Shown here one piece after another: positions 1,779 through 11,451 of a stretch of DNA of 11,451 bases; the first letter of the stretch is position 1, and each line of letters starts with the position of its first letter. The translations under genes were made by a program, and so were the position numbers. The DNA comes from Willaertia magna (taxonomy: Eukaryota; Heterolobosea; Eutetramitea; Acrasida; Naegleriidae): the NCBI GenBank assembly GCA_902984215.1, contig CADWAF010000403.1, positions 1-11,451 on the forward strand, read 5' to 3'. The notes under the pieces were generated by a model, which was not told where the DNA came from, ran no database searches, and saw only the letters and a list, made by a program, of their open reading frames with translations.

Positions 1779-1802
1779 TGCATTCATTAAATTGTTTATT
1801 TA
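1779..1802 (-). pseudogene. Tiny F-box exon scrap on the minus strand
   Basis: On the minus strand this encodes Asn-Lys-Gln-Phe-Asn-Glu-Cys, the F-box core segment also present in genes C and E. It joins directly, at about 1802, to spacer DNA equivalent to that upstream of gene C (about 7530). It is probably the remnant of a gene-C-like copy that once stood at the left end of block 1, with most of its exon removed and the adjoining piece inverted. Confidence 0.55.
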
Positions 1803-1908
1803 CAACAATTTTTACAAAAAAATTCAATAGTTACAGCAATTTATAGCTTGACACTGCGGTAACCTTACAAATAAAAATCAACAAAAATTCCAAGCGTATT
1901 GTAACTAT

Positions 1909-3048
1909 TTACATTAAAATACATTTATGCGACTTGGTTCTGAATTCTTCAAATAAATTTTCACCGTTCAATAATCTTGTTACAACATCATTCCAATCAA
2001 TATAACCCCCTTGTGTTAATCTAATTGCTTCATAAAAAACTGTATCAATATTATATCCTGTTTTAGCACTAGTCTCAATATAAATTGGTTTTAATTTACA
2101 ATTTTTACAAAGTCGTCCCACCAACTCTTCAATAATTTCATTTGTAATTTCTCTTGTTTTATTTTCTTGTTCAATTAAATCCAATTTATTTCCAACAATA
2201 ATAATTGGAAGATCATCATTATGATCATTTACTCTATAAAAACGGCCAATGCTATACTCAACTTCATTTAATGATCTTTTGTCTGTTAAATCACAAACTG
2301 TTAAAATGCAATCAGCTCTATAAAAGTGATCTCTTTTGTTATAATAAAAGTATTTAATTAAAGTTGACAACAAATCTCTTCAAACCTACCTCATTGCTCT
2401 ATAATCTTCTTGTCCAACAGTGTCTATAATATCCAAATTAAATATCCTTTCTTCTACTTTTGTACACATTCTATACATTTCGTCAATTATTACACTTAAT
2501 AATTACAATAAAAACCAAATATAATAATGAAACAATAAATTAATTATTATATTATAATAATAAAAAGAAACATACTCATTATTTTCAACAAATTCATTTC
2601 TAATGTACCTAAATGTAATTGCTGATTTCCCAACGCTATGTTCACCTAAAACTGTTATTTTTATTTCTTTGTACAATTCATTGAGTTTATTTAATTCTTT
2701 CATTTTCGTTTTGCCATTGTAAAATTTTGGTTGTTTAATTTTTAAGTCATTATAATGATTTAAATAAGAATAAATTGTTTTGTAATTGTAAACTCCAATA
2801 ATTTTTTGTTGTAGTTCAGTTGTGACATACTTTAGAAATGTGGAAAATAATAAATCTTTATAAAAAGTTTTGTTAAATATATTATTACAACATTTATTAA
2901 ATTGTTTATTCACTAAATATAAATTATTTACTGAACTAACGTATAGTTTCAATAAATGATCTTTCGGAACTGTCAAATAGCCCAGTATGTGACAAATAAT
3001 TTCATCGGGTAAAAATTGATAATTTCTTCTGCCCTCTTTTTCAAACAT
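1909..3048 (-). CDS. F-box-Ras small GTPase fusion protein (gene A), three exons
   Basis: Exons are 3048-2576, 2494-2390 and 2332-1909, giving 333 residues. Introns are 81 nt (GTATGT...AAG) and 57 nt (GTAGGT...AAG). The ATG follows an A-rich leader, as in the sister genes. Residues about 12-55 form an F-box (Leu-Pro-Asp-Glu-Ile-Ile, then His-Ile-Leu-Gly-Tyr-Leu). The Ras-like domain starts near residue 130: P-loop G135-E-H-S-V-G-K141-S142, switch II D182-T-V-G-Q186, N241-K-L-D244, S281-A-K283. It ends in the CaaX box C330-I-L-M, predicted to be prenylated. In Ras numbering, positions 12 and 13 are His and Ser rather than Gly, and the normally invariant switch-I Thr (position 35) is Ile160. 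Nucleotide handling may therefore be altered. By family knowledge the F-box would bind Skp1; a ubiquitin-ligase adaptor role is inferred. The F-box part of exon 1 is identical over 214 nt to gene B. Confidence 0.85.
2815..3028 (-). repeat. 214-nt tract identical between genes A and B
   Basis: By direct reading, this part of gene A exon 1 is identical to 4064-4277 in gene B, covering nearly the whole F-box. Identity stops sharply at both edges. The positional counterpart of B in block 2, gene E, differs at many sites over the same stretch. This is best explained by recent gene conversion. Confidence 0.8.
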
Positions 3049-3162
3049 TTTTTTTATGTATTGGATTTACAACTTTGTTGTAAAAAAAGTTGTAAACACA
3101 CTCCTTTTCTAAACATTTAAAAACTGTATTTAGTTGACCAGATTTATCTTGTTTTATAATAT
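3049..3162. promoter_or_regulatory. Spacer between genes A and B, upstream region of gene A, with inverted repeat
   Basis: This 114-bp spacer contains the 5' region of gene A and the 3' region of gene B. A perfect 11-nt inverted repeat occupies 3066-3076 and 3086-3096 with a 9-nt loop, about 20-50 nt upstream of the gene A start. On the gene A sense strand it contains AACAAAGTT, which also occurs upstream of gene B in the B/actin intergenic region. Block 2 keeps the AACAAAGTT copy and one arm but has lost part of the second arm. Promoter function is inferred from position and sharing. Confidence 0.4.
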
Positions 3163-4294
3163 TTACATTAAAATACACTTTCGTGACTTGCTTTCAAACT
3201 CTTTCAATAACTTTTCACCTTTCAATAATCTTTTAATTACATCATTCCAATCAATATAACGACCTTCTGCTAATCTAACAACATCAATAAAAGCTTCATC
3301 AATATTATACCCAGTTTTAGCACTAGTTTCAATATAAATTGGTTTTAATTTACTTTCTTTACAAACATTTTCAACAACCAATTCTTCAACCATTTCTTTT
3401 GTAATTTCTCTTCTTTCAACATCTTGTTCAATTAAATCCAATTTATTTCCAACAATTACAATTGGAAGATCATCTTGATCTTTTACTCTATAGAAATTTA
3501 CAATTGTATTCTTTACTTCTTCTAACGTTCTTTTATCTGTCAAATCACAAACTGATAGAATGGCTTTTGAATATAATAAATGTTGATCTCTTTTAAAATT
3601 GACAATCAACAATAAATTTACAATAAATTAACTTTCCACTACTTACCTTAATGACTTAAACTCTTCTTGTCCAGGAGTATCTATAATATCTAAATAATAT
3701 GTATTTTCATCAACTTTTAAACATCTTCTGTAGTGATCCTCAATGGTTGGACTTGTAAAAATTGTAAATTATTATTTAAGAATTTTAAAATTATTTAAAA
3801 TTAAAAATTAATTAAAATTAATTCAATAAAAAATTATTTAAATAAACATACTCATACTCTTCAAGAAATACATTTCTTTGATATCTTATTGTAATAGATG
3901 ATTTTCCAACTCCTCCTTCTCCAACAATTGCAATTTTCATTTCACAATAATTACAAAAAAGATTTAATTCTTTTGATTGTTGTTTCATTTTTACGTTATT
4001 GTAATGATTTAAATAAGAGTAAATTGTTTTGTACTTATAAATTTCAATAATTTTTCTTTGTAATTCAGTTGTGACATACTTTAGAAATGTGGAAAATAAT
4101 AAATCTTTATAAAAAGTTTTGTTAAATATATTATTACAACATTTATTAAATTGTTTATTCACTAAATATAAATTATTTACTGAACTAACGTATAGTTTCA
4201 ATAAATGATCTTTCGGAACTGTCAAATAGCCCAGTATGTGACAAATAATTTCATCGGGTAAAAATTGATAATTTCTTTTTTGTTTTTTAAACAT
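3163..4294 (-). CDS. F-box-Ras small GTPase fusion protein (gene B), three exons
   Basis: Exons are 4294-3852, 3751-3647 and 3589-3163, giving 324 residues; introns are 100 nt (GTATGT...CAAG) and 57 nt (GTAAGT...AAAAG). Splicing intron 1 recreates the Ras effector sequence Glu-Tyr-Asp-Pro-Thr-Ile-Glu-Asp, and splicing intron 2 joins Ser-Leu-Arg to Asp-Gln, strong evidence for the model. The F-box is at about residues 11-54. GTPase motifs are complete: G125-E-G-G-V-G-K131-S132, T150, D172-T-P-G-Q176, N231-K-L-D234, S272-A-K274, and CaaX C321-I-L-M. The Ala59 position of Ras is Pro here. It is the best-preserved fusion in block 1 and is transcribed divergently from the actin-like gene 109 bp away. 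The F-box and GTPase share exon 1, so the fusion does not depend on splicing. Upstream regulators and substrates are unknown. Confidence 0.9.
4064..4277 (-). repeat. Gene B copy of the 214-nt tract shared with gene A
   Basis: This is identical by eye to 2815-3028. Outside the tract gene B resembles gene E rather than gene A (linker with Gln-Gln-Ser-Lys-Glu-Leu and a Gly-Glu-Gly-Gly P-loop). Gene B therefore looks like a mosaic in which the F-box segment was overwritten by gene A sequence. Confidence 0.8.
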
Positions 4295-4403
4295 TTTTTT
4301 AATTTTTTTTGTTTTGTAAATGCACTCTGAACTTTGTTACAACAACATGTAGAACTTTTTAACTATCACTTGTGCTTCTTTTATTTTCCCACCACAAAAA
4401 AAA
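4295..4403. promoter_or_regulatory. Candidate bidirectional promoter of gene B and actin-like gene 1
   Basis: Only 109 bp separate the two divergent start codons. The segment TGCACTCTGAACTTTGTTACAACAACA near 4321-4347, apart from one base, is kept in block 2 (9841-9867), whereas the DNA between it and the actin start is shortened there. It includes the AACTTTGTT core also found upstream of gene A. A-rich leaders precede both ATGs. No standard TATA box can be told apart from the AT-rich background. Confidence 0.5.
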
Positions 4404-5567
4404 ATGTCCTTAGAAGAAGCACAAGTAATAGTTATTGATACAGGATCTCAAACATTTAAAGCAGGAACGGCAGGCGAAGAGACACCAAAATCTATTTTTC
4501 CAACAATTATCGGTTTTAACAAAAAAGCAAACGTCAATGAATCAAATAGTGACGTTTTGAAAGATGAATTTATTGGAATGAAAGCTCAAGAAAATCTTCA
4601 AGACTTGTTAAGCGTGTCACCAATTATTGATCGTGGTATTGTTACTAATTTTGAACATTTTGAAAAGCTTTTAAATTATACATTTTATAGTGAATTAAAT
4701 ATGTTACCAAATGAACATTCAGTGATTTTGACAGAAATGACATTGACAGAAGAAGAAAAGATTCAAAGAGAAAAGAAAACTGAATTAATATTTGAAAAAT
4801 TTAATTCACCTTCTTTCTATCTTGGTCATCACTCCATCTTATCATTATACGCTAATGGCAGAACAACCGGTGTTGTTGTAAATTCAGGGCACGACATTAC
4901 CAACGTTGTTTCGGTATGCGACGGCAAAATACAAAAACAAGCGGCCTATAAATTACCAGTTGGTGGAAGAGATGTCACAAAATATTTATCTCAATTATTA
5001 ACAAAAAATATAGAAAATTTTAAATTCTTAAATGAAGAAGAAAAATTAAAAACTGCACAAGATATTAAAGAAAAGTTTGCAAACTTTTTAGATAAAAGAA
5101 TGTATGGAACTGATAAAGAACAAAATTATGAATTACCTGACGGTACGGTTTTAACTTTTACGTTACGTGACGATGTTGTGACAGAATGTGGAGAAGTATT
5201 ATTTAAACCAAATTTATTAAATGAAATTTACAATAACACAGAAATTAATGATAATTTGGGTATTCATGAATTAGTTAATACATCAATTATGAATTGTGAC
5301 ATTGATTTTCGCAAAGAATTATATTTAAATATTGTTTTAAGTGGTGGAAATACCTTATTTAAAGGATTTGGTGCAAGATTAAGCAGAGAAGTTGAAGAAA
5401 TATCACCTTCAATGGCAGCTAAAACAATAGAGAACGAGGAAAGAAAAATTGCTGAGTGGATTGGTGGGTCAATTGTTGGTAGCATGCATTTCTTCTCTGA
5501 ACGTTGTCTTTCAATCGCAGAATATAAGGAAGTAGGTGTATCTATTATTCATCGCAAATGGTTTTAA
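4404..5567 (+). CDS. Divergent actin-like protein, copy 1 (single exon, 387 aa)
   Basis: The protein is co-linear with actin, which is usually about 375 residues. The N-terminal phosphate loop is D12-T-G-S with K19-A-G-x-A-G. Later signatures are Ser-Leu-Tyr-Ala-x-Gly-Arg-Thr-Thr-Gly near 147-156, Asp-Ile-Lys-Glu-Lys at 220-224, Tyr-Glu-Leu-Pro-Asp-Gly at 242-247, Leu-Ser-Gly-Gly-Asn-Thr at 312-317, Trp-Ile-Gly-Gly-Ser-Ile at 352-357, and the terminal His-Arg-Lys-x-Phe. Residues matching actin Gln137, Asp154, Asp157 and His161 are His143, Asn160, His163 and Asn167, so normal ATP hydrolysis is doubtful. The DNase-loop region (about 39-58) is polar and longer instead of hydrophobic, arguing against ordinary filament contacts. 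It could be a nucleotide-sensing or scaffold actin-related protein; I cannot assign a named Arp class. It is divergent from gene B and convergent with the CCA exon. Confidence 0.92.
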   Translation: MSLEEAQVIVIDTGSQTFKAGTAGEETPKSIFPTIIGFNKKANVNESNSDVLKDEFIGMKAQENLQDLLSVSPIIDRGIVTNFEHFEKLLNYTFYSELNMLPNEHSVILTEMTLTEEEKIQREKKTELIFEKFNSPSFYLGHHSILSLYANGRTTGVVVNSGHDITNVVSVCDGKIQKQAAYKLPVGGRDVTKYLSQLLTKNIENFKFLNEEEKLKTAQDIKEKFANFLDKRMYGTDKEQNYELPDGTVLTFTLRDDVVTECGEVLFKPNLLNEIYNNTEINDNLGIHELVNTSIMNCDIDFRKELYLNIVLSGGNTLFKGFGARLSREVEEISPSMAAKTIENEERKIAEWIGGSIVGSMHFFSERCLSIAEYKEVGVSIIHRKWF

Positions 5568-5734
5568 AATAATATTTATTTGTATAATGAGAGTAAATAT
5601 ATTTTTTGGAAAATAATTCAACAATTGTTTTTCTTGCCGTTCTTTTGGCATAACCTTTTTGCAAGAATTACACAAAAGAGGCACAAAACACAGAACTCGC
5701 CTTATAAACGTTAATTGTTATTTAAATCAATGTT
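5568..5734. other. Convergent 3' spacer between actin-like gene 1 and the CCA exon
   Basis: The two genes end facing each other across 167 bp. The spacer is less AT-rich than others, with a stretch at about 5628-5700 that is almost unchanged in block 2 (11122-11205). It contains TCTTGC...GCAAGA as a short inverted repeat. It probably holds the 3' untranslated ends and polyadenylation signals. I see no tRNA or recognisable small RNA. Confidence 0.45.
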
Positions 5735-5987
5735 TTATTTCTTTTGTTTTTTCTTAGGGTTATAAGTCTCCAATTCTGCATGTAATTTAAGAAAACGTTC
5801 AGAGTGCTCTTTCAACCATTCCAAAGCCTCTTCCTTTGTGACAACTTGTGGATATTTCTCTAAAGAATAATCAACTAACTCTTCAAGAACTTTAGCAACA
5901 ATAGGTCCAGGATTTATACTCAATGCTTTTGAAATATCCGAACCATTCAACACTGGTGAACTTTCTTGTAGAAGATATTTTTGTAAA
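5735..5987 (-). CDS. Last exon of a tRNA nucleotidyltransferase (CCA-adding enzyme), copy 1, apparently orphaned
   Basis: The exon encodes 83 residues after a TAG splice acceptor at 5988-5990. It contains Pro-Val-Leu-Asn-Gly-Ser-Asp-Ile, then Asn-Pro-Gly-Pro, then Thr-Lys-Glu-Glu-Ala-Leu-Glu-Trp-Leu, and ends in a Lys-rich tail. That order (L-x-G, K/N-P-G-P, T-x-E-x-A) resembles the C-terminal region of class II CCA-adding enzymes, which add CCA to tRNA 3' ends. The catalytic head should lie upstream on the minus strand (above 5990), but that DNA is AT-rich and shows no such exon within the next 500 bp. A start at the GTG or TTG codons near 5951 is unlikely. This copy is probably a truncated duplicate, unless a very long intron separates it from further exons. 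Confidence 0.6.
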
Positions 5988-6475
5988 CTAAATTTGAAAA
6001 ATTATTTATTGTTTTAAATAAAAAAATTTATTAATTTTAATACCTAAAATTTAAAATTTATATTATTATTAGTTAATATAAATTTTTTAAAGTTAAATTA
6101 TTAAATTTAAATATTATAAAAAAATTTTATAATTAATAATAAATAATAAATAAATCTATTAATATATAAAGATAAAATTTAAATAAATTTTGTATTTTTT
6201 TTAAAAAATATATTTTATAATTTTAAAAATCCAAAGAGCTATTATAAAATTAAATAATAATACATAAAATTTATAATAATTTTTTTATTTTAATATTAAA
6301 ATATTTTGTATAATCTTTATATATTTTTAATTTGCCTCAACATTATAAATTGTTTTTAATTAATTTTTTTAGTAATAAAGAATAATAATTTATAAAAAAA
6401 TGTTTAAAAATGATTTAATAAAATAAAAAAATAAAAATAGAATTAAGTATAATTTTGAAATGAATTATTAAATAA
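5988..6475. other. AT-rich spacer between block 1 and the helical-repeat fragment
   Basis: About 490 bp of A/T-dominated DNA. Its left edge (5988-5990 and onward) would be the 3' end of an intron of the CCA gene. I find no convincing upstream exon, no open frame of note on either strand and no repeat with clear boundaries. The duplication breakpoint probably lies here or inside the CCA gene. Confidence 0.6.
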
Positions 6476-6721
6476 CGTTATTTTTTAATTACAATTTTTT
6501 ATAAAATACTTTGTAAAGAAGATTTAATTAAAATTGTTAGTGAAAATCCTTTTACTTTTAAAATTGTAATGAATTATGATAATAATATTGTAAAGGATTT
6601 TACTGATTTAATAATTGAAAAGAATGTTAAAGCTTTTAGAGCGTTACCAAGGAGTTATAGAAGTATGAAATTAAACAGAGAGTTTGTTTGTAACATCATT
6701 ACAAAAAAAGATTGCGAAACG
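6476..6721 (+). pseudogene. Fragment of a helical-repeat-like gene (perhaps DUF4116-type), truncated
   Basis: An open frame starts after a stop at 6473 and includes an ATG at 6569. Its residues look like real protein: Lys-Ile-Val-Ser-Glu-Asn-Pro, then Val-Lys-Ala-Phe-Arg-Ala-Leu-Pro, then Asn-Arg-Glu-Phe-Val-Cys-Asn-Ile-Ile. The spacing of Leu-Pro and of Arg-Glu-Phe-Val recalls the short helical repeats of DUF4116 proteins; that is a tentative impression. Near 6722 the frame runs into DNA that is the shared 3' end of the F-box-Ras genes, so its C-terminus has been replaced. No complete gene exists here and the native start is not visible. Confidence 0.35.
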
Positions 6722-6728
6722 ATAATAT

Positions 6729-7506
6729 TTACATTAAAATACACTTTTGTGACTTTGTAGATTCAAACTCTTTAAATAAATTTTCACCATTTAATAATCT
6801 TTTAATTACATCATTCCAATCAACAAAAGCATTGTGCGTCAATCTAGCAGCTGCACAAAAAACCTTTTCAATCTTTATAAAAAATACAAATTTTACAAAA
6901 CTTACCTTAATGATGAAAACATATCATCTCCTGCAGTGTCTAAAATATCTATGTGATATTTTGCTTCGTCAATTGTTGTAATTTTTAAATAATTATCTTC
7001 AACAGTTGGACTTAAAGTTAATAATGAAAATATTACAAAATTACAATTTAAAAAAACATACTCATATTCTTCAACAAAAATATTTTTAACATATTTAACA
7101 GTAATTGCTGATTTTCCAACCCCGTTTTCTCCAATTACTGTTATTTTCATGTTATAGGTTAGTCTTTTTTTATCGTAATTAAGAACGTTAATTTCTTTTG
7201 ATTGTTTTGTTTGTAAAATAACATAACAGTTTAAAAGTGAATAAATTGTTTTGTGATTGTAACTTTTTGTTGAAGTTCATTTGTTAAGTATTTAAGAAAC
7301 GATGAAAATAATAAATTTTTATAAAAAGTGTTATCAAACGAGTTTTTAGCGCATTCATTAAATTGTTTATTTACCAAGTATAGATTATTTATTGATTTTA
7401 CTAAAGGCTTCAATAAATTTTCTTTTGGAACAAGATATCCAAATACGTGACTAATTATTTCATCGGGTAAAAATCGTTGGTAAGGTGATTGCAATTTTGT
7501 TAACAT
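6729..7506 (-). pseudogene. Broken F-box-Ras gene C (frameshift plus deletion of most of the last exon)
   Basis: The start and F-box are recognisable in 7506-7235 (Leu-Pro-Asp-Glu-Ile-Ile...His-Val-Phe-Gly-Tyr-Leu). About ten bases are missing relative to gene A near 7262, shifting the frame so that translation stops at 7231 after 91 residues. In the shifted frame the gene continues through a P-loop (Gly-Glu-Asn-Gly-Val-Gly-Lys-Ser), a 51-nt intron (7061-7011) restoring Glu-Tyr-Asp-Pro-Thr, and exon 2 (7010-6906) with Asp-Thr-Ala-Gly-Asp in place of Gln61. The last exon has lost the region of the Asn-Lys-x-Asp and Ser-Ala-Lys motifs; only the C-terminus with Cys-Ile-Leu-Met remains (6872-6729). 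Splicing at the visible AAG would also be out of frame. It cannot make a full GTPase; a short F-box peptide is conceivable. Confidence 0.85.
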
Positions 7507-7644
7507 TTTTTTCGCAAAAGATTTTTTTTACAACAATTTTTACAAAAAAATGCAATAGTTATAACAATTTATACCTTGACACTACAATAACCTTACAAAT
7601 AAAAAGCAACAAACATTCCAAGAATATTGTAACAATATTATTAT
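7507..7644. other. Spacer between genes C and D
   Basis: This 138-bp stretch is the 5' side of gene C and the 3' side of gene D. From about 7530 to its end it closely matches 1803-1908, the DNA downstream of gene A, which marks the left limit of good block homology. No gene, RNA or clear motif is seen beyond A/T runs. Confidence 0.6.
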
Positions 7645-8614
7645 TTACATTAAAATACATTTATGCGACTTGGTTCTGAATTCATCAAATAAATTTTCAC
7701 CGTTCAATAATCTTGATACAACATCATTCCAATCAATATAACCCCCTCGTGTTAATCTAATTGCTTCATAAAAAACGGTATCAATATTATATCCTGTTTT
7801 AGCACTAGTCCCAATATAAATTGGTTTTAAAGTACAATTTTTACAAAGTCTTCCAACCAACTCTTCAATTATTTCATTAGTAATTTCTCTTGTTTTATTT
7901 TCTTGTTCAATTAAATCTAATTTATTCCCAACAATAATAATTGGAAGATCATATTGATCATTTACTCTATAAAAACGGCCAATGCTATACTCAACTTCAT
8001 TTAATGATCTTTTGTCTGTTAAATCACATACTGTTAAAATGCAATCAGCTCTATAAAAGTGATCTCTTTTTAATAAAAGTATTTAATTAAAGTTGACAAC
8101 AGATCTCTTTAAACCTACCTCATTGCTCTATAATCTTCTTGTCCAACAGTGTCTATAATATCAAAATTAAATATCCTTTCTTCTACTTTTGTACACATTC
8201 TATACATTTCGTCAATTGTTACACTTAATAATAATTACCATAAACATTGAGTTTAGTTAATTCTTTCATTTTCGCTTTGCCATTGTAAAATTTTGGTGGT
8301 TTAGTTTTTAAGTCATTATAATGATTTAAATAAGAATAAATTGTTTTGTAATTGTAAACTTCAATAAGTTTTTGTTGTAGTTCATTTGTGACGTACTTTA
8401 GAAATGTGGAAAATAATAAATCTTTATAAAAAGTTTTGTTAAATATATTATTACAACATTTATTAAATTGTTTATTTACTAAATATAAATTATTTACTGA
8501 ACTAACGTATAGTTTCATTAAATTATCTTTCGGAACTGTCAAGTAGCCCAGTATGTGACAAATAATTTCATTAGGTAATAGTTGATAATTTCTTCTGCCC
8601 TCTGGTTCAAACAT
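7645..8614 (-). pseudogene. F-box-Ras gene D with the P-loop region deleted; encodes at most a 129-aa F-box protein
   Basis: This is the block 2 counterpart of gene A. Exon 1 starts at 8614 with the same F-box and linker, then about 165 bp present in gene A (roughly 2513-2678) is missing, removing the P-loop, the start of switch I and the intron 1 donor. Translation from the ATG ends at 8225 after 129 residues. The downstream exons remain intact: 8223-8119 with Asp-Thr-Val-Gly-Gln, a 53-nt intron 8118-8066, and 8065-7645 with Asn-Lys-Leu-Asp, Thr-Ser-Ala-Lys and the CaaX box Cys-Ile-Leu-Met. I checked two tiny candidate introns at the deletion site; both splice into stop codons. The GTPase half is thus untranslatable with the F-box. 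An F-box-only product could compete with its relatives, which is speculative. Confidence 0.82.
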
Positions 8615-8722
8615 TTTTTTTATGTATTGGATTTACAACTTTGTTGTTTTTGTAAACACACTCCTTTTCTAAACATTTAAAAACTGTATTTAGTTGACCA
8701 GATTTATCTTGTTTTATAATAT
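8615..8722. promoter_or_regulatory. Spacer between genes D and E, upstream region of gene D
   Basis: 108 bp matching 3049-3162 nearly base for base. AACTTTGTTGT (gene D antisense of AACAAAGTT) is retained about 20-40 nt upstream of the gene D start, while the second arm of the inverted repeat seen in block 1 is disrupted. The E-proximal part is the 3' region of gene E. Confidence 0.35.
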
Positions 8723-9812
8723 TTACATTAAAATACACTTTCGTGACTTGCTTTCAAACTCTTTCAATAACTTTTCTCCTTTCAATAATCTTTTAATTAC
8801 GTCATTCCAATCAATATAACTACCTTCTGCTAATCTAACAACATCAATAAAAGCTTCATCAATATTATACCCAGTTTTAGCACTAGTTTCAATATAAATT
8901 GGTTTTAATTTACTTTCTGTACAAACATTTTCAACAACCAGTTCTTCAACCATTTCTTTTGTAATTTCTCTTCTTTCAATACCCTGTTCAATTAAATCCA
9001 ATTTATTCCCTACAATTACAATTGGAAGATTATCTTGATCTTTTATTCTATAGAAATTTACAATTGTATTCTTTACCTCATCTAAAGTTCTTTTATCTGT
9101 CAAATCACAAACTGATAGAATGGCTTTTGAATATAATAAATGTTGATCTCTTTTAAAATTTAAAATTGACAATCAATAAATTAATTCTCCACTACTTACC
9201 TTAATGACTTAAACTCTTCTTGTCCAGGAGTATCTATAATATCTAAATAATATGTATTTTCATCGACTTTTAAACATCTTCTGTAGCGATCCTCAATGGT
9301 TGGACTTTTTAAAAATTGTAAATTATTTAAAATTATTTAAAATTTAATGTTAATAAATAAACATACTCATACTCTTCAAGAAATACATTTCTTTGATATC
9401 TTATTGTAATAGATGTTTTTCCAACTCCTCCTTCTCCAACAATTGCTACTTTCATTTCACTATAATTATAAAAAAGATTTAATTCTTTTGATTGTTGTTT
9501 AATTTTTAAGTTATTGTAATGATTTAATAAAGAATAAATTGTTTTGTAATTATAAATTTCAATAATTTTTCTTTGTAAATCAGTTGTGACATATCTTAAA
9601 AATTTTGAAAATAATAAATCTTTGAAAGTATTACCAAACATATTTTTACAACATTCATTAAATTGTTTATTTATTAAATATAAATTATTTATTGAACTAA
9701 CAGTAGACTTCAAAAAACTATCTATTGTTATTACCGTCAAATAGCCCAGTATGTGACAAATAATTTCATCGGGTAAAAATTGATAATTTCTTCTTTTTTG
9801 TTTTTTAAACAT
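8723..9812 (-). CDS. F-box-Ras small GTPase fusion protein (gene E), three exons, intact
   Basis: Exons are 9812-9367, 9304-9200 and 9149-8723, giving 325 residues; introns are 62 nt (GTATGT...AAAAG) and 50 nt (GTAAGT...AAAAG). I chose the ATG at 9812 because it follows the A-rich leader and matches the starts of A, B and D; a GTG further upstream (9845) is only an open-frame extension. The F-box spans about residues 12-55. The Ras domain has G126-E-G-G-V-G-K132-T133, effector E-Y-D149-P-T151-I-E-D, D173-T-P-G-Q177, N232-K-L-D235, S273-A-K275 and CaaX C322-I-L-M. The GTPase part is very close to gene B, but the F-box differs (Val-Ile-Thr-Ile-Asp-Ser-Phe in place of Val-Pro-Lys-Asp-His-Leu). 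It is divergent from actin-like gene 2. Predicted role: prenylated, GTP-switched F-box adaptor; inferred only. Confidence 0.9.
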
Positions 9813-9900
9813 TTTTTTTTGTTTTTTTTTGTTTTGTAAATGCACTCTGAACTTTATTACAACAACAAGTCAAACTTTTATTTTCCTATGTCAAAAAAAA
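9813..9900. promoter_or_regulatory. Candidate bidirectional promoter of gene E and actin-like gene 2
   Basis: 88 bp between divergent starts, 21 bp shorter than the block 1 equivalent. The conserved TGCACTCTGAACTTT and ACAACAACA elements remain at 9841-9867, nearer to the actin start than in block 1. Poly-A/T tracts flank both ATGs. Confidence 0.45.
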
Positions 9901-11061
9901 ATGTCGTTAGAAGAAGCACAAGTAATAGTTATTGATACAGGTTCTCAAACATGTAAAGCTGGAACTGCAGGTGAAATAACACCAAAATCTATTTTTCCAA
10001 CAATTATCGGTAACAAAAAAGCAAACGTCAATGAATCAAATAGTGACGTTTTGAAAGATGAATTTATTGGAATGAAAGCTCAAGAAAATCTTCAAGACTT
10101 GTTAAACGTGTCACCAATTATTGATCGTGGTATTGTTACTAATTTTGAACATTTTGAAAAGCTTTTAAATTATACATTTTATAGTGAATTGAATCTGTTA
10201 CCAAATGAACATTCAGTGATTTCGACAGAAATGACATTGACAGAAGAAGAAAAGATTCAAAGAGAAAAGAAAACTGAATTAATATTTGAAAAATTTAATT
10301 CACCTTCTTTCTATCTAGGTCATCACTCCATCTTATCATTATACGCTAATGGCAGAACAACCGGTGTTGTTGTAAATTCAGGGCACGACATTACCAACGT
10401 TGTTTCGGTATGCGACGGCAAAATACAAAAACAAGCGGCCTATAAATTACCGGTTGATGGAAGAGATGTCACAAAATATTTATCTCAATTATTAACAAAA
10501 AATATAGAAAATTTTAAATTCTTAAATGAAGAAGAAAAATTAAAAACTGCCCAAGATATTAAAGAAAAGTTTGCAAACTTTTTAGATAAAAGAATGTATG
10601 GAACTGATAAAGAACAAAATTATGAATTACCTGACGGTACGGTTTTAACTTTTACGTTACGTGACGATGTTGTGACTGAATGTGGAGAAGTATTATTTAA
10701 ACCGAATTTATTAAATGAAATTTACAATAACACAGATATTAATAATTATTTGGGTATTCATGAATTGGTTAATACATCAATTATGAATTGTGACATTGAT
10801 TTTCGTAAAGAATTATATTTAAATATTGTTTTAAGTGGTGGAAATACCTTATTTAAAGGATTTGGTGCAAGATTAAGCAGAGAAGTTGAAGATATATCAC
10901 CTTCAATGGTGGCTAAAACAATAGAGAACGAGGAAAGAAAAATTGCTGAATGGATTGGTGGATCAATTGTTGGTAGTATGCATTTCTTCTCTGAACGTTG
11001 TCTTTCAATTGCAGAATATAAGGAAGTTGGTGTATCTATTATTCATCGCAAATGGTTTTAA
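9901..11061 (+). CDS. Divergent actin-like protein, copy 2 (single exon, 386 aa)
   Basis: Nearly identical to copy 1, with one codon fewer (Phe38 of copy 1 is absent) and about a dozen amino-acid differences, including Phe to Cys at residue 18, Gly to Asp at position 187 of copy 1, and Leu to Ser at position 109. Silent differences seem somewhat more numerous by eye, which suggests protein-level constraint. The open frame can be extended upstream to 9829, but the ATG at 9901 is the start that matches copy 1 and actin length. The same catalytic-site replacements occur (His, Asn, His and Asn for actin Gln137, Asp154, Asp157 and His161), so these predate the duplication. Terminal His-Arg-Lys-Trp-Phe is retained. 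Confidence 0.92.
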   Translation: MSLEEAQVIVIDTGSQTCKAGTAGEITPKSIFPTIIGNKKANVNESNSDVLKDEFIGMKAQENLQDLLNVSPIIDRGIVTNFEHFEKLLNYTFYSELNLLPNEHSVISTEMTLTEEEKIQREKKTELIFEKFNSPSFYLGHHSILSLYANGRTTGVVVNSGHDITNVVSVCDGKIQKQAAYKLPVDGRDVTKYLSQLLTKNIENFKFLNEEEKLKTAQDIKEKFANFLDKRMYGTDKEQNYELPDGTVLTFTLRDDVVTECGEVLFKPNLLNEIYNNTDINNYLGIHELVNTSIMNCDIDFRKELYLNIVLSGGNTLFKGFGARLSREVEDISPSMVAKTIENEERKIAEWIGGSIVGSMHFFSERCLSIAEYKEVGVSIIHRKWF

Positions 11062-11222
11062 AATAATATTTATTTGTATAATGAGAGTAAATATGTTTTT
11101 TGGAAAATAATTTAACAATTGTTTTTCTTGCCGTTCTTTTGGCATAACCTTTTTGCAAGAAACACAAAAGAGGCACAAAACACAGAACTCGCCTTATAAA
11201 CGTTGTTATTTAAATCAATGTT
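11062..11222. other. Convergent 3' spacer between actin-like gene 2 and the CCA exon
   Basis: Block 2 version of 5568-5734, with a few small deletions (near 11161 and 11204) and scattered substitutions. Presumably 3' untranslated DNA of both genes; no RNA gene recognised. Confidence 0.45.
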
Positions 11223-11451
11223 TTATTTCTTTTGTTTTTTCTTAGGGTTATCTGTCTCCAATTCTGCATGTAATTTAAGAAAACGTTCAGAGTGTTCTTT
11301 CAACCATTCCAAAGCCTCTTCCTTTGTGACAACTTGTGGATATTTCTCTAAAGAATAATCAACTAACTCTTCAAGAACTTTAGCAACAATAGGTCCAGGA
11401 TTTATACTCAATGCTTTTGAAATATCTGAACCATTCAACACTGGTGAACTT
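11223..11451 (-). CDS. C-terminal part of a tRNA nucleotidyltransferase (CCA-adding enzyme), copy 2, cut by window edge
   Basis: Matches 5735-5963 with very few changes; one visible amino-acid change is Tyr to Asp five residues before the Lys-rich tail. The same Leu-Asn-Gly-Ser-Asp-Ile, Asn-Pro-Gly-Pro and Thr-Lys-Glu-Glu-Ala motifs are present. The gene continues beyond 11451, so this copy may be the complete parental gene, but its catalytic part is outside the window. Identification rests on the C-terminal motifs alone. Confidence 0.6.
   Translation of the reverse strand, partial: SSPVLNGSDISKALSINPGPIVAKVLEELVDYSLEKYPQVVTKEEALEWLKEHSERFLKLHAELETDNPKKKQKK

Follow-up and report, generated by a model that had tools for sequence, protein, structure and literature searches.

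F-box proteins bind Skp1 in SCF ligases, CaaX boxes are prenylated, and small GTPases that carry adaptor domains for other cullins are known in the form of Rab40, whose SOCS box is C-terminal, and of RhoBTB, which works with Cullin-3. The Euglenozoa, members of Discoba, provide an example in which the adaptor domain is an F-box. This protein, TbFRP, combines a FYVE domain, an F-box and a Ras-like GTPase on one chain, and according to the available text of the report a search for an ortholog in Naegleria gruberi revealed none (PMC3593210). Willaertia is likewise placed in Discoba in the available account of its genome (PMC11702301). Proteins of the ARF family that carry an F-box or a BTB domain have also been described, in the accessible text as a recurrent recruitment into ubiquitin-dependent circuits (PMC8358228).

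The locus considered here belongs to Willaertia magna (Heterolobosea), whose genomes are AT-rich, with GC contents given as 24.8% (PMC6892926) and 24.69% (PMC11702301) in the available text of two reports. It lies in a window (the whole 11,451-nt stretch of DNA analysed, C122:1-11451 of a genome scanned as 19.24 Mb in 894 contigs) that carries five related genes, A to E, all on the minus strand. With an F-box on a canonical Ras, this free-living amoeba would have Ras activation and protein destruction coupled within a single chain. The first-pass annotation of this DNA knew of no described family with this layout, which has to be corrected in view of the published accounts of TbFRP (PMC3593210) and of the ARF proteins with an F-box (PMC8358228), as far as the available text of each describes them.

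Results

Structure of genes B and E

Table 1. Coordinates of the genes and other features in the window.
Feature	Position	Strand	Description
Gene A	1909..3048	-	333 residues; effector loop changed to NDVIIDE
Gene B	3163..4294	-	exons 4294-3852, 3751-3647, 3589-3163; introns 3851-3752, 3646-3590; 324 residues
Gene C	6729..7506	-	divergent broken copy; F-box part and P-loop in different frames; NKxD and SAK stretch missing
Gene D	7645..8614	-	copy of A via block duplication; lacks most of intron 1 and the P-loop-bearing end of exon 1
Gene E	8723..9812	-	three exons; spliced product 325 residues
Gene E exon 1	9367..9812	-	F-box-like segment (residues ~12-57), linker, P-loop GEGGVGKT; stop-free
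Gene E intron 1	9305..9366	-	62 bases, GTATGT...AAAAAG, phase 2; splicing gives EEYDPTIED
Gene E exon 2	9200..9304	-	switch I DPTIED and switch II DTPGQE
Gene E intron 2	9150..9199	-	50 bases, GTAAGT...TAAAAG; splicing gives SLRDQH
Gene E exon 3	8723..9149	-	NKLD, ETSAK, C-terminal CILM and stop
Actin-family gene, first copy	4404-5567	+	intronless; PF00022 1.3e-94
Actin-family gene, second copy	9901-11061	+	intronless; PF00022 5.8e-92
Duplicated ORF, first copy	5735-6001	-	
Duplicated ORF, second copy	11223-11450	-	
ORF fragment	6476-6760	+	

The product of gene E consists of an F-box-like segment, a linker of about 60 residues, a complete Ras domain and a CILM terminus, with LPDEI at position 13, GEGGVGKT at 126, YDPTIED at 148, DTPGQE at 173, NKLD at 232, ETSAK at 271 and CILM at 322. 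This is the layout that the first-pass annotation had proposed for B and E, and the coordinates, strand, exon structure and motifs are as it described them. Its claim of a direct fusion also holds for both genes: LPDEI and the P-loop of gene E fall within one stop-free exon, and gene B has the same three-exon structure, again with F-box and P-loop in a single stop-free exon. Both introns of gene E have GT..AG ends, and their removal restores the Ras motifs as had been predicted, giving YDPTIED and SLRDQH. The possibility that B and E are an artefact of two neighbouring genes is rejected because of this shared stop-free exon and because uninterrupted fusions are found elsewhere in the genome.

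Spliced gene A corresponds over all 333 residues to the NCBI W. magna protein P0003 (ABK040_006899), gene A being identical in two assemblies, while residues 103-324 of gene B correspond to P0001 (ABK040_006900, 222 aa). The splice junctions of P0001 and P0003 are those of spliced B and A, and the intron 1 junction of P0001 (paralogue B) is as in gene E. The start of P0001 lies at an internal Met, which leaves out the F-box, though the frame of gene B is open upstream. Among the matches listed, 9 of 16 W. magna proteins start at the F-box (P0002-P0005, P0009-P0012, P0014) and 7 start inside or after it (P0001, P0006-P0008, P0013, P0016, P0040); the latter, as partial or truncated models, were left out of alignment A1. 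Gene prediction for strain T5(S)44, to which the ABK040 records presumably belong, made use of RNA-seq and protein data according to the available text of the genome report (PMC11702301).

The GTPase domain and its C-terminus

The Ras domain that had been called in the spliced 325-residue protein of gene E matches Pfam Ras (PF00071) at 2.5e-39, and that of gene B at 6.5e-40. The G1-G5 motifs and the DPT effector loop are present in gene E, as is a CaaX box, CILM, at its end; switch II of both E and B reads DTPGQ, where H-Ras has DTAGQ. When the family profile is compared with solved structures, H-Ras or Ras is found in all of the best 60 of 952 rows, and a fold search with the model of P0002 gives Ras structures in the best 50 of 1,999 rows, with target TM values of 0.81-0.92 for H-/K-Ras. 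When 33 GTPase domains are placed in a tree, the ten F-box+Ras rows cluster together (100/100), with the six unfused W. magna Ras rows next to them (98/95). On the evidence of its sequence, the GTPase of gene E is Ras proper.

The F-box segment

Compared with the GTPase, the N-terminal segment is recognised less directly. Against the curated cut-off of 24.3 bits for Pfam F-box-like (PF12937), the whole proteins score 22.6 bits for B (E 9.3e-5), 22.5 bits for A (E 9.6e-5) and 16.2 bits for E (E 0.009), all of them below it. Scanning the genome with the same profile gives 25.3-25.5 bits, above the cut-off, for the frames of genes A to D, and gene E is not among the matches; exon 1 alone scores 24.6 bits for gene B, above the cut-off, and 18.3 bits for gene E, below it. 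Exon 1 of gene B passes both the F-box-like and the Ras cut-offs, and exon 1 of gene E has a Ras score of 23.4 bits, above the cut-off of 21.6. Among 11 family members, F-box-like is detected in 6 and F-box in 2 (E 0.1 or better).

Since single sequences are marginal, a profile-profile comparison was used, in which 17 family N-termini (16 kept by the program) were aligned by hhalign with 20 F-boxes of the W. magna genome, each above the cut-off and selected from 104 genome matches (one of them, from C375, itself belongs to a fused gene). This comparison gave a probability of 96.0, a score of 43.1 and an E value of 4.5e-9 for one target, and none of 200 column shuffles reached the score (top shuffle 18.0). 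Cutting the N-terminus differently gave a score of 39.5, against 8.6-13.0 for the linker, for each half of the Ras domain and for the N-terminus in reverse. When applied to single sequences, the profile of local F-boxes weakly lists 10 of 11 members (best E 5.3e-4, gene E 0.015, P0014 86, for a nominal 1000 sequences). Within the first 100 residues of P0002, 14 are invariant across 11 aligned family proteins. AlphaFold predicts helices in the F-box region at low confidence, and no confident three-helix F-box: the mean pLDDT is 78.6 for full-length P0002, with residues 1-29 below 50, and 52.7 for the N-terminus of gene E alone. The F-box of the first-pass annotation is upheld in part. As judged from the profile comparisons it is real at the level of the family, in which exon 1 of B and the frames of A to D exceed the cut-off, but it is not established by gene E alone, which at 16.2-18.3 bits is a weak member.

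Duplication and divergence of the array

A block containing A, B, the actin gene and a further ORF is duplicated within the window (1791-5963 versus 7521-11451), in three pieces of 93.6-94.7% identity, and the gap in gene D is seen as a break of the self-match at 2503/2679 versus 8232/8245. Between E and B, dN/dS is 0.051/0.132 for the whole protein, 0.120/0.250 for the F-box, 0.089/0.225 for the linker and 0.022/0.086 for the Ras part, so that dN stays under dS in the F-box and linker as well. The ratio for the F-box part is 0.48 to 0.64 across three gene pairs, and constraint on it is therefore weak. Between A and B the values are 0.021/0.033 for the F-box and 0.254/0.450 for Ras; the near-identity of the F-boxes, but not of the Ras domains, suggests exchange between copies.

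A six-frame genome search with the gene E protein locates 14 family places (E <=8.3e-12, match start in residues 1-54), with 5 in the window, 4 in C182, 3 in C46 and 1 each in C280 and C778; the count excludes C753 and C879, since the match there continues past a stop into genes for ordinary Ras. The match is stop-free in 10 of the 14, and the GTPase motifs are altered in several paralogues. A bacterial or viral origin is rejected, because the genome contains spliced genes, genes for Skp1 and for cullins, and at least 162 matches to the Ras profile; when viral contigs were scanned once with the alignment of the family, 92 pattern matches came up, none of which is a relative by tblastn.

Several other features of the array may be recorded. 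At the DNA level the F-box halves of the neighbours A and B (2730-3054 versus 3979-4300) are 94% identical and their last exons 81%, which looks like an exchange limited to the F-box end. The best solved match of the first actin-family copy is ordinary actin (E 1.2e-81). The first copy of the duplicated ORF weakly matches a tRNA nucleotidyltransferase domain (E 0.0071, below the cut-off), a similarity that may mark the ORF as the final exon of a gene for a CCA-adding enzyme. The ORF fragment has no Pfam match above cut-off; by eye it resembles a portion of the longer ORF at 2234-3094 of L049, which has other family members next to it. In L050 (C182), two similar Gln-rich ORFs of 370 and 378 residues (5366-6481 and 7609-8748, minus strand) are interleaved with exons of the F-box+Ras family.

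Other fusions of an F-box and a GTPase

Candidate fusions elsewhere in the genome were collected by comparing profile match lists by eye; 18 loci were read and ten proteins were run through Pfam. Five of the ten pass the F-box and Ras cut-offs in one uninterrupted frame (L039, C708; L040, C681; L041, C644; L042, C745; L043, C311), although the Ras match of L042 ends at position 119 of 162, so that the frame holds an incomplete GTPase. The Ras cut-off is also exceeded by L053 (C656) and by two ORFs of L052 (C400), whose F-box scores of 18.2, 20.1 and 19.9 lie below the cut-off of 20.5, and in L046 (C792) an F-box is accompanied by a GTPase match that falls short of its cut-off. For L044 (C375) the F-box-like match is strong (4.3e-12) and the next exon is nearest to TC10 and Rac; joined to L094 (C375) through a 46-base GT..AG intron inside the P-loop, L044 is predicted to encode 491 residues ending in CIIG. 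Both domains are above cut-off in the NCBI W. magna proteins P0121, P0122 and P0123, and the F-box of P0124 scores 19.2 of 20.5. The nearest solved GTPases are Rab1 (C400), Ypt1 (C745) and Rab32 (C681).

As read, the ORFs of four fusions with a Rab-like GTPase (L040, L041, L043 and L053) lack a CaaX end. L040, L041 and L043 begin with MGQ, and so would L053 from its second Met. MGQ is a possible start for N-myristoylation; the membrane attachment of these proteins may consequently differ from that of the Ras branch.

The distribution of the family was followed in protein databases. Short-word searches, which distant relatives can escape, found 6 database proteins with the first 132 residues of P0002 and 4 with L040, all from W. 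magna, and in the search with gene E every row among the best 120 of 912 that covers at least 81% of the query is from W. magna. No Naegleria name occurs in the results for P0002 and L040 or in the named rows of the gene E best 120 of 912, many rows being nameless.

Number of joinings

The tree comprises 19 fused and 14 unfused rows selected from the Ras-profile matches of the genome; P0005 (middle missing), C598 (no open frame across both domains) and C792 (GTPase below cut-off) were left out. The Ras, Rho and Rab labels of the 14 unfused rows were assigned by motif, and one of them, Rab_C156, fell beside the Ras group. C375 groups with Rho (99/99), the eight other non-Ras fusions lie near Rab (81/88, weak), and one long branch, C708, is flagged. 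A single clade of all 19 fused rows, a group fixed before the tree was made, is rejected (p-AU 0.0031), so that repeated joining, in three events, would be the simplest reading of the tree. A single old fusion followed by many losses of the F-box is less simple, the tree being blind to gain versus loss. Two further groups, both named after the tree and uncorrected for multiple tests, are rejected as single clades: the 18 fused rows without the Rho-like row, that is Ras-type plus Rab-like (p-AU 0.0223), and the nine non-Ras rows, Rho-like plus Rab-like (p-AU 0.0412).

Discussion

Taken together, B and E encode real single-chain proteins. The likeliest role for them, though the odds on it are no better than even, is that of adaptors which sit at the membrane and bring substrates to an SCF (Skp1-Cullin1) ligase, with Ras as the selector, and for this role we infer Skp1 binding, prenylation, GTP gating and substrates. 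The genome contains family matches to Skp1 (3), cullin (7), the prenyltransferase beta family (1) and prenyltransferase alpha repeats (7, on two contigs), as well as 4 ICMT matches from a profile that also matches bacterial and archaeal controls. In the proposed arrangement the F-box, separated by a helical linker from the canonical Ras domain, would dock on Skp1, and the prenylated CaaX tail would place the complex on the membrane. The GTP-loaded Ras domain would then recruit effector-type partners as substrates or, alternatively, might position the ligase where Ras signals. GTP gating of assembly is not to be assumed, because the binding of Rab40b to Cullin5 is nucleotide-independent according to the available text on that protein (PMC8129794), and by this analogy gating of substrate choice appears likelier.

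Several other readings account for parts of the same evidence. With both parts on one chain, the F-box could act in cis, bringing the SCF ligase to the GTPase itself; there would then be no substrate from outside, and Ras would be short-lived, with its level governed by its own turnover. Such a role is in line with the suggestion of the TbFRP authors, in the available text, that the F-box may couple to rapid proteolysis, and with the cleavage that releases the GTPase of TbFRP (PMC3593210), but F-boxes on several GTPase branches fit either role, and we regard action in cis as unlikely. It is about equally improbable that the F-box has drifted or has a non-SCF function, so that the N-terminus would be only a helical partner-binding segment and the work would be done by the Ras domain. 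The scores of gene E below cut-off, the lack of a confidently predicted F-box fold and the weak constraint on the F-box part (0.48-0.64) all point in that direction, and Roy1, reported to be an F-box protein that works outside SCF complexes and inhibits a Rab5-like GTPase, may be a precedent. Set against these observations are a profile-profile match to F-boxes that lies far above those of the shuffles and of other regions, and the passage of gene B over the Pfam cut-off.

Two more sceptical readings seem to us very improbable indeed. The F-box and the GTPase might be made as separate proteins, or translation might start inside the linker, as would be suggested by the start of NCBI P0001 at residue 103 of gene B, by the 7 of 16 NCBI family models among the matches listed that begin inside or after the F-box, and by the cleavage of TbFRP that frees its GTPase (PMC3593210, available text). 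The stop-free exon, the inclusion of the F-box in 9 of 16 NCBI models among the matches listed, the conservation of the N-terminus as protein and the uninterrupted fusions elsewhere in the genome argue otherwise. Nor do we give more than slight credence to a functionless, fast-decaying tandem array of lineage-specific duplicates on their way to becoming pseudogenes. C and D are broken, the block duplication within the window is of 93.6-94.7% identity, and the N-terminal part finds only the 6 W. magna proteins, all of which would fit such decay, but B and E have kept their Ras motifs, clean introns and CaaX end, the whole-protein dN/dS of E and B is 0.051/0.132, and gene A is identical in two assemblies.

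Beyond the reading of B and E as membrane-anchored SCF adaptors, we advance more tentatively, and with some doubt, a wider proposal: that Heterolobosea captured an F-box at least three times, on Ras, Rho and Rab-like GTPases, and thereby acquired GTP-switched SCF adaptors as a Cullin-1 counterpart of Rab40 (Cullin-5) and RhoBTB (Cullin-3), in whose Ras branch active Ras would select ubiquitination targets at the membrane. The presence of F-boxes on Ras, Rho and Rab-like GTPases of one genome makes the design look favoured, and the three branches are natural replicates for asking whether nucleotide state gates a cullin ligase.

Comparison with known systems

Naegleria is the sister genus of Willaertia. 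The accessible passages of a few W. magna or Naegleria papers contain no mention of such a fusion, and among the matches listed from the open-licence literature no description was found of a protein consisting of an F-box, a canonical Ras and a CaaX end. Fusions of an F-box with a GTPase may nevertheless be on record for Naegleria, since the small-GTPase supplement of a Naegleria fowleri paper is cited, in its available text, alongside reviews of F-box, BTB and RhoBTB proteins (PMC8296547).

As far as the available text describes it, TbFRP shares with the W. magna family a single-chain layout in which the F-box precedes a GTPase of the Ras superfamily, and a link to membranes. It differs in having a FYVE domain and a GTPase nearest to TbRab18 (PMC3593210), where the W. 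magna family has Ras proper and a CaaX box as the putative membrane signal; no FYVE domain was found in Pfam scans of E, B, A or the 11 family members. The ARF proteins share the joining of a small GTPase to an F-box and are set apart, by their description in the accessible text, in belonging to the ARF family and not to Ras (PMC8358228). Rab40, in the text available, is likewise a Ras-superfamily GTPase with its own cullin-ligase adaptor motif that brings substrates to a ligase, although it does so through a SOCS box, Elongin B/C and Cullin-5 in place of Skp1 and Cullin-1, and on a Rab in place of a Ras (PMC8129794); Pfam scans of E, B, A and the 11 family members revealed no SOCS family, and gene E ends in its CaaX box. 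RhoBTB, by its reported make-up, similarly combines an atypical Rho with a cullin-adaptor domain, but has BTB for F-box, another cullin, and Rho for Ras. By analogy of design, Rab40 and RhoBTB are functional analogues of the F-box+Ras family. The union of an F-box and a GTPase on one chain is thus already known, and an F-box placed directly on a canonical Ras with a CaaX end would be a further form of it.
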